Source of the DNA: Marivita geojedonensis
Lineage (GTDB): Bacteria; Pseudomonadota; Alphaproteobacteria; Rhodobacterales; Rhodobacteraceae
Length of the DNA stretch: 64,000 nt
Reading direction: 5' to 3'
Assembly (NCBI RefSeq): GCF_002115805.1
Contig: NZ_JFKC01000003.1
Coordinates: 62,001 to 126,000, forward strand
The notes beneath the pieces were generated by a model. That model had not been told where the DNA came from and ran no database searches. It saw only the letters and a program-made list of their open reading frames with translations. Position 1 is the stretch's first letter. The number at the start of each line of letters is the position of its first letter. This document shows, piece after piece, positions 24,098 to 28,566 of this stretch. Made by a program: the position numbers and the translations under genes.

Positions 24098-24790
24098 TCA
24101 AAGGCTGATCGGCTGCATCACCTCAGGCTCGATGACCTCCACATCCGGCAGGCTGGCCTTCAGAACGTCCGCAGTCTGCTCCAGCAGCGGGAATGTGCGG
24201 TAGTGGCAGGGGATGACCGTTTTGAAATTGAAGTACCGCTTGGCCGCATAGGCCGCGCCTGCCATGTCCATGGTGAAGTGACCCCCTGCGGACAGGATGC
24301 CGATGTCCGGTTGGTAGTAATCCCCGATCCAGTCCATATCGGCCATGATCGCCGTATCGCCGGACAGGTAGATCGTGTGCCCATCCCCGTTGATGATGAA
24401 CCCGGTCTCCATCCCCATGTAGACGGGGCGTTCATCGACAACCATGGATGAAGAATGAGATGCGGGGACCATGCTCACGGTCACGTTGCCAAAGCTCAGT
24501 GTGCCGCCCTTGTTGAAGCCGGCCCCTTCGACAGCTCCCTGTCCGAAAAGGTAGTTCGCCAGTTCGTAGATTGCGCTGACCGGCGCGCCGGTCTTTTTCG
24601 AAATTTCCACCACATCGGTCGTGTGATCGAAATGCCCGTGTGTGACGAGGATCTGCGTCGCCCCGGCGATGGCGGCCTCGTGATCCTGCCCTTCCATCAT
24701 CGGATTGCCGTTCAGCCACGGATCGACCAGCAGAATCTGGTCGCCAATCTCGATCCGGAACGATCCGTGTCCAAGCCAAATGATGTTCAT
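24098..24790 (-). CDS. Metal-dependent hydrolase of the metallo-beta-lactamase fold (UPF0173/YtkL-like)
   Basis: The 230-residue protein begins MNIIWLGHGSFRIEI, the UPF0173 signature. It carries the metal-binding HGHFDHT (about residues 51-57), ASHSSS (about 110), LSGDTA (about 143) and a late CHYRTFP. These place it with L-ascorbate-6-phosphate lactonase-like MBL hydrolases; the true substrate is unknown. AGGAGG lies 6 bases before ATG 24790, ruling out the longer start at 24817. It is divergent from bchE, and the bchE regulatory sites lie 73-123 bases from its start. Confidence 0.9.
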   Translation of the reverse strand: MNIIWLGHGSFRIEIGDQILLVDPWLNGNPMMEGQDHEAAIAGATQILVTHGHFDHTTDVVEISKKTGAPVSAIYELANYLFGQGAVEGAGFNKGGTLSFGNVTVSMVPASHSSSMVVDERPVYMGMETGFIINGDGHTIYLSGDTAIMADMDWIGDYYQPDIGILSAGGHFTMDMAGAAYAAKRYFNFKTVIPCHYRTFPLLEQTADVLKASLPDVEVIEPEVMQPISL

Positions 24791-24862
24791 GTCCTGTCCT
24801 CCTGACTCCCTGTGCATCGCAGGCTAGCACAGCGCGCGCGAGGTGAAAGAGGGCGGCGTATT

Positions 24863-24876
24863 TTGATCTATGTCAA
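24863..24876. promoter_or_regulatory. FNR/FnrL-type binding site upstream of bchE
   Basis: TTGATCTATGTCAA matches the FNR consensus TTGAT-N4-ATCAA at nine of ten defined positions. In Rhodobacter species FnrL activates bchE under low oxygen, so the match is where it should be. Confidence 0.75.
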
Positions 24877-24895
24877 TTTAAAATGACGCCAATAC

Positions 24896-24913
24896 TGTCA
24901 GGATAAGTTTACA
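24896..24913. promoter_or_regulatory. PpsR/CrtJ-type binding site upstream of bchE
   Basis: TGT (24896-24898), 12 bases, then ACA (24911-24913) gives the exact TGT-N12-ACA consensus of the aerobic photosynthesis repressor CrtJ/PpsR. A near copy, TGT-N12-ACG, lies at 24871-24888 and overlaps the FNR-like box. Both are just upstream of the GGGGAGAG ribosome site of bchE. Confidence 0.7.
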
Positions 24914-24931
24914 CATACGGGGAGAGTCGCC

Positions 24932-26596
24932 ATGCGCATACTGTTTGTCCATCCGAACTACCGATCCGGCGGCGCCGAGATCGCGGGCACATGGCCTCCG
25001 GCATGGGTGGCGTATCTGTCAGGTCATCTGCGACAGGCCGGCTTTGACGACATTCATTTCATCGACGCGATGACCGATGATGTCTCGGATGCCGAACTGG
25101 CCCGGCGTATGGAGGCGCTGGACCCGGATGTTGTGGGTGTGACCGCAATCACCCCGTCCATCTACCGCGCGGAAGATGTGCTGAAGGTCGCCAGCGAGGT
25201 GGTACCCGATGCCGTGCGGATGCTGGGCGGGGTGCACGCGACCTTCATGTTCAAACAGGTTCTTTCGGAAGCGCCCTGGGTCGATGTCATCGTGCGGGGC
25301 GAGGGCGAAGAGATCTGCACCGAACTGATGCTCGCCATCGAGGACGGTCGCTGGCCCGCCGACAGGCACAGGATCAGGGGTCTAGCGTTCAAGGACGGTG
25401 ACCAGATCGTCGCGACCCCGGCGGCGAGCACGGTCAAGGACCTGTCGAAGATCAAGCCGGACTGGACCGTTCTGGAGTGGTCGAAATACATCTACATCCC
25501 GCTGGGCACGCGCGTGGCGATCCCGAACCTTGCGCGCGGCTGTCCGTTCACCTGTTCGTTCTGTTCCCAGTGGAAATTCTGGCGCGACTACCGCGTGCGC
25601 GATCCGAAGGATGTGGTCGACGAGATCGAAGATCTGGTCGAAAACCACGGTGTCGGGTTCTTCATCCTTGCCGACGAAGAACCCACCATCAACAAGAAGA
25701 AATTCGTCGCCTTCTGTCAGGAGCTGATCGACCGGGAGCTGCCGGACAAGGTCAAGTGGGGCATCAACACCCGCGTGACCGACATCTACCGCGACCGCGA
25801 TCTGCTCAAGTTTTACCGCAAGGCGGGGCTGGTTCATGTGAGCCTTGGCACCGAGGCCGCGGCGCAGATGAAGCTGGACGTGTTCAACAAGGAAACCAAG
25901 GTCGACGAGAACAAGACCGCGATCCGACTTCTGCGCGAAGCCGATATCCTGGTCGAGGCACAGTTCATCGTCGGGCTGGACAACGAAACGCCGGAAACTC
26001 TGGAAGAGACCTACCAGATGGCGTGGGACTGGCAGCCTGATCTGGCGAACTGGTCGATGTACACACCGTGGCCCTTCACGCCGCTGTTTCAGGAGTTGAA
26101 GGACCAGGTCGAGATCTATGACTTCTCCAAATACAATTTCGTAACGCCGATCATGAAACCGGCCGCGATGGAGCGGGGGGAATTGCTTGACGGGGTGATG
26201 AACAACTATCGGCGTTTCTACATGAAGAAGGCGCTCTTCCATTACCCGTGGCGCGGCACCGGATTCAGACGGCGCTATCTGCTTGGCTGTCTTTACGCCT
26301 TCCTCAAGGCCGGGGTTGGACGCACCTTCTACGATCTGGGCAAGGCGGGCTACTGGGGGCCGCAGACCAAGAAGTCGGTGGATTTCCATTTCGACGAAAC
26401 CCGCCAACTGGCCGAAGCCCAGCTTGAGGACTGGGAAGCCTCGGCCGACAAGGCCGCAGCAGCCAGGGAACGGCGCGAGGCGGTCAAGGCACAGATGAAG
26501 GAACGCGCTGCCGAACGGTCGCAGGACTTCAGGATGCCCAACGGGGCCGAGGTGAAGGCCTGTGGAGGCGGCACTCAGCAAATGGAGGACGTCTGA
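24932..26596 (+). CDS. bchE: Anaerobic Mg-protoporphyrin IX monomethyl ester cyclase (BchE)
   Basis: This 554-residue radical-SAM enzyme forms ring E of bacteriochlorophyll without oxygen. The N-terminal cobalamin-binding domain begins [19 protein letters not shown]. The radical-SAM cluster motif is Cys204-x3-Cys208-x2-Cys211 in [17 protein letters not shown]. Much of the protein agrees with Rhodobacter BchE as I remember it, for example [12 protein letters not shown] and [16 protein letters not shown]. It overlaps bchJ by 35 bases. No other bch, puf or crt gene is in the window, so the pair lies outside a photosynthesis gene cluster here. The upstream FNR and PpsR sites imply induction at low oxygen. 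Confidence 0.95.
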
Positions 26597-27185
26597 GGAT
26601 GCCCATCGCGGCGCCCTGATCGGGCCGAACGCGATCCTTCAGCTTCTGCCGCAGATCGAACGCATCGGCGGAGAGGCGCGCGTGGCGCAAATGCTGGCAG
26701 AGGCTGGCGTGTTCGAGGTGCCCGACGGACTTCACATGATCCCCGAAGGCGATGCGGCGCGTCTGCATCAGGTTCTGCGGCGCGATGAGCCGGTTCTGGC
26801 CCCGGAACTGGCCGCCGAGGCGGGCAGGGGGACGGCCGAATATATCCTCGCGCACCGGATTCCACGTCCGGCCCAATGGCTGCTCAAGGCGCTTCCGGCC
26901 CCTCTGGCGGCGCGCAGCCTTGCGCGGGCTATTTCCAAACATGCCTGGACGTTCGCAGGCTCCGGCCGGTTCGTTGCACGCGGGCCGTGGCGGTTCGAAA
27001 TCGCGGACAACCCCATCGTTCACGGTGAACACAGCGAAAGCCCGCTGTGCCAGTGGCACGCGGCGGTGTTCGAACACCTGTACCGTGTTCTGGTGCATCC
27101 GAATGTCACCTGCCGCGAGGTGTCTTGCTGTGCGATGTCCCCGAACTCGTCCTGTCAGTTTGAATTGACACTCGCGCGGAGCTGA
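26562..27185 (+). CDS. bchJ: BchJ, bacteriochlorophyll synthesis protein (V4R domain)
   Basis: The 207-residue protein follows bchE as in the Rhodobacter photosynthesis cluster and has the family's [10 protein letters not shown] start region. The C-terminal V4R cysteine region reads [21 protein letters not shown] (about 183-203). BchJ was first called a 4-vinyl reductase; later work suggests it helps handle or channel tetrapyrrole intermediates rather than carrying out the reduction. GTG 26562 lies inside the end of bchE (35-base overlap), and no later good start exists, so expression should be coupled. Confidence 0.85.
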
Positions 27186-27381
27186 TCCGCGCCATCGCGA
27201 CCCGCACGGCGTTTTTCCGCTTTTGTGGCTTGGGTTGCGCAGCTATGGTGTATCTGCGACATAGCTTCAGTGATCCCGCCGGGATTGCGGTCAAAGTGTC
27301 AACATGTCCGTGCTCAGGGGTGGGCGCAGGCGTCCTGCACGTCAGGTTTCAAAGACATCGCGTTATCGGGGGGCTGCGCGG

Positions 27382-28566
27382 GTGAATATCCAGAAGTCAC
27401 AAGATATTACCGAGTTTCCCTCTGCGCCGAGTGCAGACCATGAAGAGCGGCTGTCCGATCCCGAGCGACTTTTGGCGCTGGCCGAAACCGAGATCATGGA
27501 TTCGCCCCCCGAGGACGTGTTCGACCGCGCAGCGCGTCTGGCCACGACCGCGCTGGGCGTGCCGTTGGGCCTTGCGTCTTTCGTCGACGACCGCCGCCAG
27601 TTCTTCAAGGCTCAGTGCGGGCTGCCCGAGGCAGAGGCCGCAAAACGGGAAACGCCGCTGAGCCATTCCTTCTGCCAGTATGTCGTTGCACATGACCGCA
27701 CGCTTGCGGTGTCGGACGCGCGCGACCACCCTCTGCTCAGGTCGAATGGTGCCGTGTCCGACATGGATGTGATCGCCTATTTGGGTGTTCCGATCCACGC
27801 GCCGGGTGGACAGAGTATCGGATCGTTCTGCGCCATCGACGACAAGCCGCGGACATGGTCCGAACGTGATGTGGAGGTCATGACCGATCTGGCCGGAATG
27901 GTCGAAACAGAGCTTCAGCTGCGCCACGAGCGCGACGCGATGGAGACTCTGGCGCGCGAACTCAATCACCGGGTCAAGAACCTCTTTTCGATCGTCGGAG
28001 GCATGGTCACCCTCACGGCGCGGTCGTCCGAAACGCCCTCCGAAATGGCGCAGGTGCTGCAAGGGCGTCTTTCCGCGCTGGACTGGGCCCATTCGATGAT
28101 CAGCCCGGCGCTGAGCGAGGGCGATCTGGCAACGCGCAGCATAGACCTTCGTGCGCTGGTCGAGCGTCTGGTGCAACCGCATCTGACCAGCGGGGCCGAC
28201 AGGCTCGGCATCGACGTGCCGGATCTGGAACTGTCCGGCCGTGTGGTTACCGATCTGGCTCTGGTGATCCATGAACTGGCCACCAACGCCGCCAAATACG
28301 GCGCGCTGTCGGGTCCGGAGGGGCGGGTGGATGTTTCCGGCACGCTGGACGAAACGACGCTTGAGGTGATCTGGCGGGAAGCGGGTGGTCCCGATATCCC
28401 CGAGGCCCCATCGGAAACCGGTTTCGGCAGTCGCCTCATCGAGTTGACGATCGTGCGTCAGATGAACGGCGGGCTTGAGACCACGTGGCACAGATCGGGG
28501 GTCGTCCATTGCCTGACCGTGCCGCGCACCGTGATTGCGCCGAAGGTCGATCCATCGGCATCCTGA
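27382..28566 (+). CDS. GAF-domain sensor histidine kinase, HWE family
   Basis: The 394-residue soluble kinase has an N-terminal GAF domain (about residues 30-175, with FCQYVVAHDRTLAVSDAR and YLGVPIHAPGGQSIGSFC). The dimerisation/phosphoacceptor region has His196 (ELNHRVKNLFSIV), and the ATPase domain has an N-box with His (LVIHELATNAAKYGAL). The WxE motif (VIWREAGGP) defines the HWE family. No transmembrane helix is seen. GTG 27382 follows a GGGGGG stretch; ATG 27304 is an alternative. No response regulator is adjacent. The GAF lacks an obvious bilin cysteine context, so redox, ligand or general-stress sensing cannot be separated. Confidence 0.85.
   Translation: MNIQKSQDITEFPSAPSADHEERLSDPERLLALAETEIMDSPPEDVFDRAARLATTALGVPLGLASFVDDRRQFFKAQCGLPEAEAAKRETPLSHSFCQYVVAHDRTLAVSDARDHPLLRSNGAVSDMDVIAYLGVPIHAPGGQSIGSFCAIDDKPRTWSERDVEVMTDLAGMVETELQLRHERDAMETLARELNHRVKNLFSIVGGMVTLTARSSETPSEMAQVLQGRLSALDWAHSMISPALSEGDLATRSIDLRALVERLVQPHLTSGADRLGIDVPDLELSGRVVTDLALVIHELATNAAKYGALSGPEGRVDVSGTLDETTLEVIWREAGGPDIPEAPSETGFGSRLIELTIVRQMNGGLETTWHRSGVVHCLTVPRTVIAPKVDPSAS

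Follow-up and report, generated by a model that had tools for sequence, protein, structure and literature searches.

In bacteriochlorophyll synthesis, bchE encodes the ring-closing enzyme that works independently of oxygen. Dual control of this gene by FnrL and PpsR is already known in Rhodobacter. Both proteins bind at the R. sphaeroides gene, FnrL as an activator (PMC2908626, PMC4263372) and PpsR as a repressor (PMC4344238). Altering the T of TCAA at -57 of the R. sphaeroides promoter costs about 90% of the FnrL-driven activity (PMC4263372). In microarrays of fnrL mutants of the same species, bchE was unchanged or changed in the opposite direction, so that activation was seen in promoter fusions only (PMC4263372), and opposite effects of FnrL on bchE have been reported for the two Rhodobacter species (PMC4634722). 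Occupancy of bchE by R. capsulatus CrtJ in vivo is comparable in air and in the light without oxygen (PMC5362033), and simple release therefore does not account for everything. The CrtJ motifs of R. capsulatus bchEJGP are called mutually distant in a discussion passage (PMC6199135). The CrtJ operator of R. capsulatus bchC consists of two TGT-N12-ACA palindromes, 8 bp apart, over the -35 and -10 regions (PMC5362033, PMC6199135).

For roseobacters the picture comes from Dinoroseobacter shibae, where PpsR follows blue light via the protein LdaP, the photosynthesis cluster is reported not to be oxygen-regulated, and PpsR boxes cover the -10 and -35 regions of the bchF promoter (PMC10890935). FnrL-dependent induction of photosynthesis genes has been reported for this species, bchE being unmentioned in the available part of that report (PMC5398030). 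Likewise, the accessible text on D. shibae PpsR describes no FNR site at bchE (PMC10890935). As far as the open-licence PMC literature is accessible, we found no mention in it of a half-site shared by FnrL and PpsR, or of the mirror image of this arrangement that is described below.

The bchE locus of Marivita geojedonensis

The window analysed here is a stretch of 64,000 nucleotides from the draft genome of M. geojedonensis (4.3 Mb, 73 contigs). It carries bchE at 24932-26596 on the plus strand (TIGR02026, 830 bits, 6.2e-250), followed on the same strand by bchJ at 26562-27185 (TIGR02019, 2e-55), whose start codon is uncertain. The start of bchJ overlaps the end of bchE, and both genes probably form an operon. 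A gap of 114 bp separates bchE from a divergent metal-dependent hydrolase gene (24098-24817, minus strand; PRK00685). Within this gap lies an array of 51 bp, all parts of which are given on the plus strand.

The array begins with an FNR/FnrL-type box, TTGATCTATGTCAA, at 24863-24876 (centre 24869.5), assigned by motif match and by comparison with relatives. It is one base off the consensus, with G for A in GTCAA, and fits the relaxed FnrL form RTCAA that is present in ChIP-supported FnrL sites of R. sphaeroides and R. capsulatus (PMC2908626, PMC4634722). The hexamer TGTCAA at 24871-24876 is common to this box and to an upper PpsR/CrtJ-type box, TGTCAATTTAAAATGACG, at 24871-24888, which has one mismatch (ACG for ACA) and stands at register +8, counted from the start of the FNR box. 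A lower PpsR/CrtJ-type box, TGTCAGGATAAGTTTACA, at 24896-24913 (register +33), matches TGT-N12-ACA exactly. The two PpsR boxes start 25 bp apart and leave a gap of 7 bp; a likely ribosome-binding site, GGGGAGAG, can be read at 24919-24926. The preliminary description of this DNA had read all three boxes correctly, the upper one as a near copy that overlaps the FNR box.

It had also taken the boxes as direct motif evidence for redox control. On the single sequence the motifs occur near chance level. The strict FNR pattern with at most one mismatch is found three times in the window, where 1.17 occurrences are expected, and 12 of 100 shuffles reach three; TGT-N12-ACA is found nine times against 7.69 expected, and an exact match to it by itself proves nothing. 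In view of these unimpressive window statistics, relatives were compared. Each motif is weak alone, and it is the conservation among relatives, which exceeds chance, that is decisive.

A position of bchE outside a photosynthesis cluster agrees with the 73-contig draft, in which bchE lies on contig C23, crtA, crtI, crtD and bchY on C4, and ppsR and bchN on C17. In R. sphaeroides, by contrast, bchE adjoins ppsR. In D. shibae, bchEJ (Dshi_2637/2636) carries locus numbers far removed from those of the main cluster (Dshi_35xx) (PMC10890935).

Two minor observations concern the downstream side. The next gene after bchJ (27304-28566) encodes a histidine-kinase-like protein that matches blue-light and PhyK kinase models, in all cases below cut-off. 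Inside the end of bchJ, at 27153-27170, there is a palindromic PpsR-like site, TGTCAGTTTGAATTGACA. A similar late site, 2.28-2.54 kb past the bchE start, occurs at 16 other loci among 72 family loci, all 16 of them beside ppsR; at the R. sphaeroides-type locus L072 its reverse complement equals the PpsR site printed for R. sphaeroides bchG-pucC-bchP (PMC4344238). The site at 27153-27170 could be a relic of such a layout. It is absent from the same-genus relative and was set aside.

Conservation of the FNR box and its presumed regulator

A search for BchE covered 394 genomes of the family, and 78 upstream regions, the window's included, were compared. L100 (a duplicate of L015) and the bchE pieces of G147, G344, G021 and G296 were left out. 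The rows were anchored on the FNR box, which partly fixes the FNR columns, and not on the PpsR half-sites. An exact TTGAY-N4-RTCAA is present in 74 of the 78 promoters, three have one mismatch, and one has no FNR box. In this last case (L067) the upstream DNA is a single open frame up to the start codon, and hence the promoter may sit farther upstream. In the remaining 77 rows the distance from the start of the FNR box to the start codon ranges from 62 to 103 bases. The T of TCAA is found at -57 from the start codon in L072 as well as in the commonest layout (22 of 77 rows). The FNR letters of L072 are those of the printed FnrL ChIP-chip site of R. sphaeroides bchE (PMC2908626), and its letters at +33 are those of the printed PpsR ChIP-seq site (PMC4344238). 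One locus (L091, G242:C26), whose bchE match covers the first 89 residues only and contains an internal stop, retains the FNR box together with both PpsR boxes, these two in exact form.

The preliminary description had staked its case on the presence of fnrL and ppsR in the genome, and both were found. The host FnrL carries CSDCPIRHRAVC, with the N-terminal cysteines, as well as ETVSR. Its gene (C12:269440-270183, minus strand) is closely preceded by an FNR box, TTGATCTGTGTCAA, at G000:C12:270194-270207, which suggests that fnrL may be autoregulated. In total, 46 TTGAY-N4-RTCAA sites occur in the host genome, including the one at 24863-24876.

The main activator at the FNR box might also be another Crp/Fnr regulator of the CrpK, Dnr or FixK type. 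CrpK, for example, binds to the bchE promoter of R. sphaeroides and activates it (PMC4263372), D. shibae has three Dnr regulators besides FnrL (PMC5398030), and the host genome has seven HTH_Crp_2 matches over cut-off, where two of the five examined in full (L096, L097) are without the cysteine motif. Against this stands the finding of an FnrL-like protein (E <= 1e-60) in 77 of the 78 bchE genomes, the one miss being a genome that is 84% complete, and the ChIP-supported binder in R. sphaeroides is FnrL (PMC2908626). We consider a different main activator unlikely; it is in any case compatible with our preferred explanation, a promoter activated by FnrL and carrying its own PpsR operator.

PpsR boxes at two fixed registers

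Exact PpsR boxes concentrate at two registers. At +8 from the FNR box, 43 of the 78 promoters have an exact box and 59 have one with at most one mismatch; at +33 the numbers are 43 and 57. With shuffled flanks, 0.81 exact boxes would be expected at +8 and 0.02 at +33. Among the 77 rows, exact boxes were found at six other registers, once each. At least one exact PpsR box is present in 71 of the 78 promoters and at least one within one mismatch in 76, and seven have no exact box at +8 or +33. Both boxes within one mismatch, with starts 25 bp apart, are found in 40. Thus, the conservation in relatives keeping bchE that the preliminary description had called for is found for both kinds of box. 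Column information is also in line with this, amounting to about 0.7-1.3 bits in the PpsR half-sites versus 0.02-0.24 bits upstream of the FNR box (78 promoters). Three loci (L023, L052, L058) are instructive: the FNR box starts 92-103 bases upstream of the gene, and the +33 box has not moved, so the spacing is a property of the promoter and not of the distance to the gene. Taken together, these comparisons argue that the array is a real, conserved regulatory array.

In the 77 rows both PpsR boxes are exact in 15, only one or the other in 28 and 28, and neither in 6, an anticorrelation with p = 3e-5, not corrected for kinship. One PpsR box may weaken where the other is strong. Among the 20 loci adjacent to ppsR (adjacency was assigned by hand), the upper box is exact in 5 versus 38 of 58 elsewhere, and the lower box in 16 versus 27 of 58. 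As most of the ppsR-adjacent loci lack an exact upper box, the overlap with the FNR box is dispensable for dual control. R. sphaeroides resembles our locus in the gene, the two regulators, the FNR position and the +33 PpsR box (PMC2908626, PMC4344238, PMC4263372). However, its FNR half-site reads GCATCAA, and there is no overlapping upper PpsR box; its ChIP-seq table holds a second PpsR motif for bchEJ (PMC4344238). CATCAA, an FnrL half-site that lacks TGT, is naturally present in 5 of the 78 family promoters.

PpsR exceeds the model cut-off in all 78 bchE genomes (read by hand) and in 164 of the 394 family genomes overall. The gene directly ahead of the host ppsR encodes a protein with a B12-binding domain, which by its resemblance could be AerR/PpaA. 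The host PpsR itself (TIGR02040, 470.9 bits, cut-off 275.4) has two cysteines, C259 and C430.

What PpsR responds to is a separate question. Low-oxygen activation together with repression in air had been proposed for this gene. The dual control by FnrL and PpsR stands, being known from R. sphaeroides (PMC2908626, PMC4344238, PMC4263372), but the words "in air" are unsafe for roseobacters, where, by analogy with D. shibae, PpsR may answer light rather than air (PMC10890935). Here PpsR might conceivably respond to light or to a B12 photoreceptor, or also act as an activator. This would agree with the control of D. shibae PpsR by LdaP, with the AerR-CrtJ complex proposed as an activator in R. capsulatus (PMC5362033), and with the B12-binding domain encoded next to the host ppsR. 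On the other hand, the two host cysteines are retained at the spacing of the CrtJ redox pair, C249/C420 (PMC5362033). We regard such a departure from repression in air as doubtful, yet as the most serious of the alternatives considered here.

The shared half-site

As a control for the overlap, FNR boxes were taken from ccoN, which is a standard target of FnrL; the 65 bchE-bearing genomes searched gave 63 upstream regions. At bchE, the FNR half that is shared with the upper PpsR box carries TGT in 58 of 77 rows. At ccoN, TGT occurs in none of 104 boxes in the gene-side half and in 29 of 104 in the opposite half. The ACA that completes a PpsR box is present in 43 of the 58 TGT-bearing rows at bchE versus 1 of 29 at ccoN. 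Across the bchE rows TGT and ACA travel together: 43 have both, 15 TGT only, 6 ACA only and 13 neither (p = 0.002, kinship uncorrected).

These counts bear on a simpler reading, namely that the two regulators merely have similar half-site preferences. TGTCAA would then be kept for FnrL, PpsR would act via the lower box, and the overlap would have no role of its own. The half-sites of FnrL and PpsR are indeed nearly identical, and a TGTCAA half is found on either strand in 13 of the 46 FNR boxes of the host genome (hand count). Moreover, L072, of the R. sphaeroides type, has an FNR box without TGT and the lower box only, and is still regulated by both factors. Nevertheless, similar preferences leave the difference in the ACA partner between bchE and ccoN and the joint occurrence of TGT and ACA unexplained, and the mirror register that recurs outside the family speaks against them as well. 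We hold this reading to be quite improbable, slightly more so than a different main activator. If instead the overlap matters, it offers a reason why FNR boxes of bchE so often end in TGTCAA.

Predicted promoter geometry and proposed mechanism

Inside the lower PpsR box, 71 of 77 rows have A at +37 and 61 of 77 have T at +41. These resemble the pair of positions that is best conserved in a -10 hexamer, for which CAGGAT at 24899-24904 is the candidate in the window, as judged from the conserved columns. Transcription would then start near +48, predicted from geometry only at 24911 in the window (plus strand), which would place the centre of the FNR box at -41.5, a class II position. The PpsR boxes are predicted to span about -40 to -23 (upper) and -15 to +3 (lower).

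The commonest letters at +20 to +25, within the downstream half of the upper box, are TTGACA, and this might be read as a sigma-70 -35 hexamer instead of a PpsR half-site. It is, however, only 10 bp from the -10-like A+37/T+41, where 16-18 bp are needed, and was rejected on this spacing; in addition, the window has ATGACG at this place, and promoters of the mirror register have this PpsR box on the upstream side of most of the FNR box. We give this reading hardly any credence.

In our judgement, the array is likely to represent a class II FnrL-activated promoter with a built-in tandem PpsR operator. At low oxygen, FnrL on 24863-24876 (about -41.5) would recruit RNA polymerase to the -10 element inside 24896-24913. 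Active PpsR on both TGT-N12-ACA boxes would cover the -35 and -10 regions. FnrL and PpsR are probably not accommodated together, since the downstream FNR half-site, TGTCAA, is also part of the upper PpsR box. Repression would thus act in two ways, by blocking the polymerase and by PpsR evicting FnrL. Such eviction is, from the motif arrangement, the best though unproven reading of the overlap. The fixed overlap register, together with its mirror image, lends support to the competition between the regulators that the preliminary description had considered possible; exclusive binding is what the overlap would suggest.

The putative operator resembles that of R. capsulatus bchC and, as a roseobacter promoter with PpsR boxes predicted to lie over -10 and -35, that of D. 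shibae bchF. It differs from bchC in its gap of 7 bp, in that the pair lies about 7 bp farther downstream relative to the predicted start, and in the overlap of the FNR box with the upper palindrome, which the available text on bchC does not describe (PMC5362033, PMC6199135).

The mirror register outside the family

A first search of the class, covering 385 genomes, yielded six BchE loci outside the family. Two of them (L161, L166) have an exact FNR box together with an exact +33 box, and L165, which is the same place as L167, has a one-mismatch FNR box with an exact +8 box. L163 shows a PpsR box and no FNR box, L162 only an FNR box with one mismatch, and L164 neither.

A scan of GTDB gave 532 confirmed relatives, of which the best 80, ranked from an outside query, were taken as a sample; these are bchE loci from alpha-, beta- and gammaproteobacteria. 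Among the 80, 75 have an FNR-like box (two mismatches or fewer) and five have none. The search for the best box in the outside rows favours FNR-like boxes that stand beside PpsR half-sites, and we therefore rely on exact/exact counts. Exact FNR boxes in the expected zone were found at 38 of the best 80 loci. Beside these 38, an exact PpsR box stands at -12 in eight, at +8 in seven and at +33 in four, against 0.10, 0.25 and 0.01 expected; no further register rises above two. Register -12 mirrors +8 exactly (14 - 18 - 8). It was found in three Falsiroseomonas, two Rhodoferax, two uncultured Burkholderiales and one uncultured betaproteobacterium, and register +8 in two Burkholderiaceae, in one Alsobacter, one Rhabdaerophilum, one member each of Beijerinckiaceae and Rhodospirillales, and in an unplaced alphaproteobacterium. 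Judged from the tree and allowing for near-identical rows, these correspond to about three (-12) and about five (+8) independent groups. The array is not universal, as 31 of the best 80 outside loci, including Bradyrhizobium and Novosphingobium, have an FNR-like box and neither PpsR register.

For the history of the registers, a BchE tree of 100 rows was used (20 from the family and the 80 outside loci), which contains 14 of the 15 loci on the strict +8 list. It implies at least two register changes with exact/exact rows and up to five with relaxed rows, where L179 and L207 were relabelled from +8 to -12 by hand. A single clade of mirror rows was rejected on this tree, the group having been named after the data were seen. 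The mirror rows also show weak A+37 and T+41 signals (0.70 and 0.60 bits).

More tentatively, with a confidence that falls just short of even, we propose that the shared half-site is a 26-bp composite switch for mutual exclusion that has arisen or flipped more than once at bchE, in the +8 form in Rhodobacteraceae and others and in the -12 form in Roseomonadaceae and betaproteobacterial lineages. If this holds for the mirror form, whose PpsR box would lie upstream of the predicted core promoter, eviction of FnrL would be the main route of repression there. Promoters with the one exact register and promoters with its mirror image form natural pairs in which blocking of the polymerase could be told apart from eviction of the activator.

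Composite sites elsewhere in the genomes

A genome-wide search for the strict FNR box combined with the upper box gave no match in the host genome or in the same-genus relative. In the family, the pattern occurs in 90 of the 394 genomes at 107 places, 41 of them at bchE (hand count). Seven of the 66 places not at bchE were inspected. One coincides with a bchC promoter, others adjoin crtD, ubiU/ubiD-type genes and ccoN, the rest lying next to genes with no family match or to a trimethylamine methyltransferase-like gene. A +8 composite stands in the interval from a UbiU gene to a UbiD-family gene (L310 1581-1606, G365), another ahead of ccoN (L311 2973-2998, G386), and a third in the interval of crtD and a prenyl-diphosphate-synthase-like gene (L312 1515-1540, G029). 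At the bchC promoter (L313 1544-1595, G196), an FNR box overlaps a PpsR box, and a second PpsR box stands 26 bp away.
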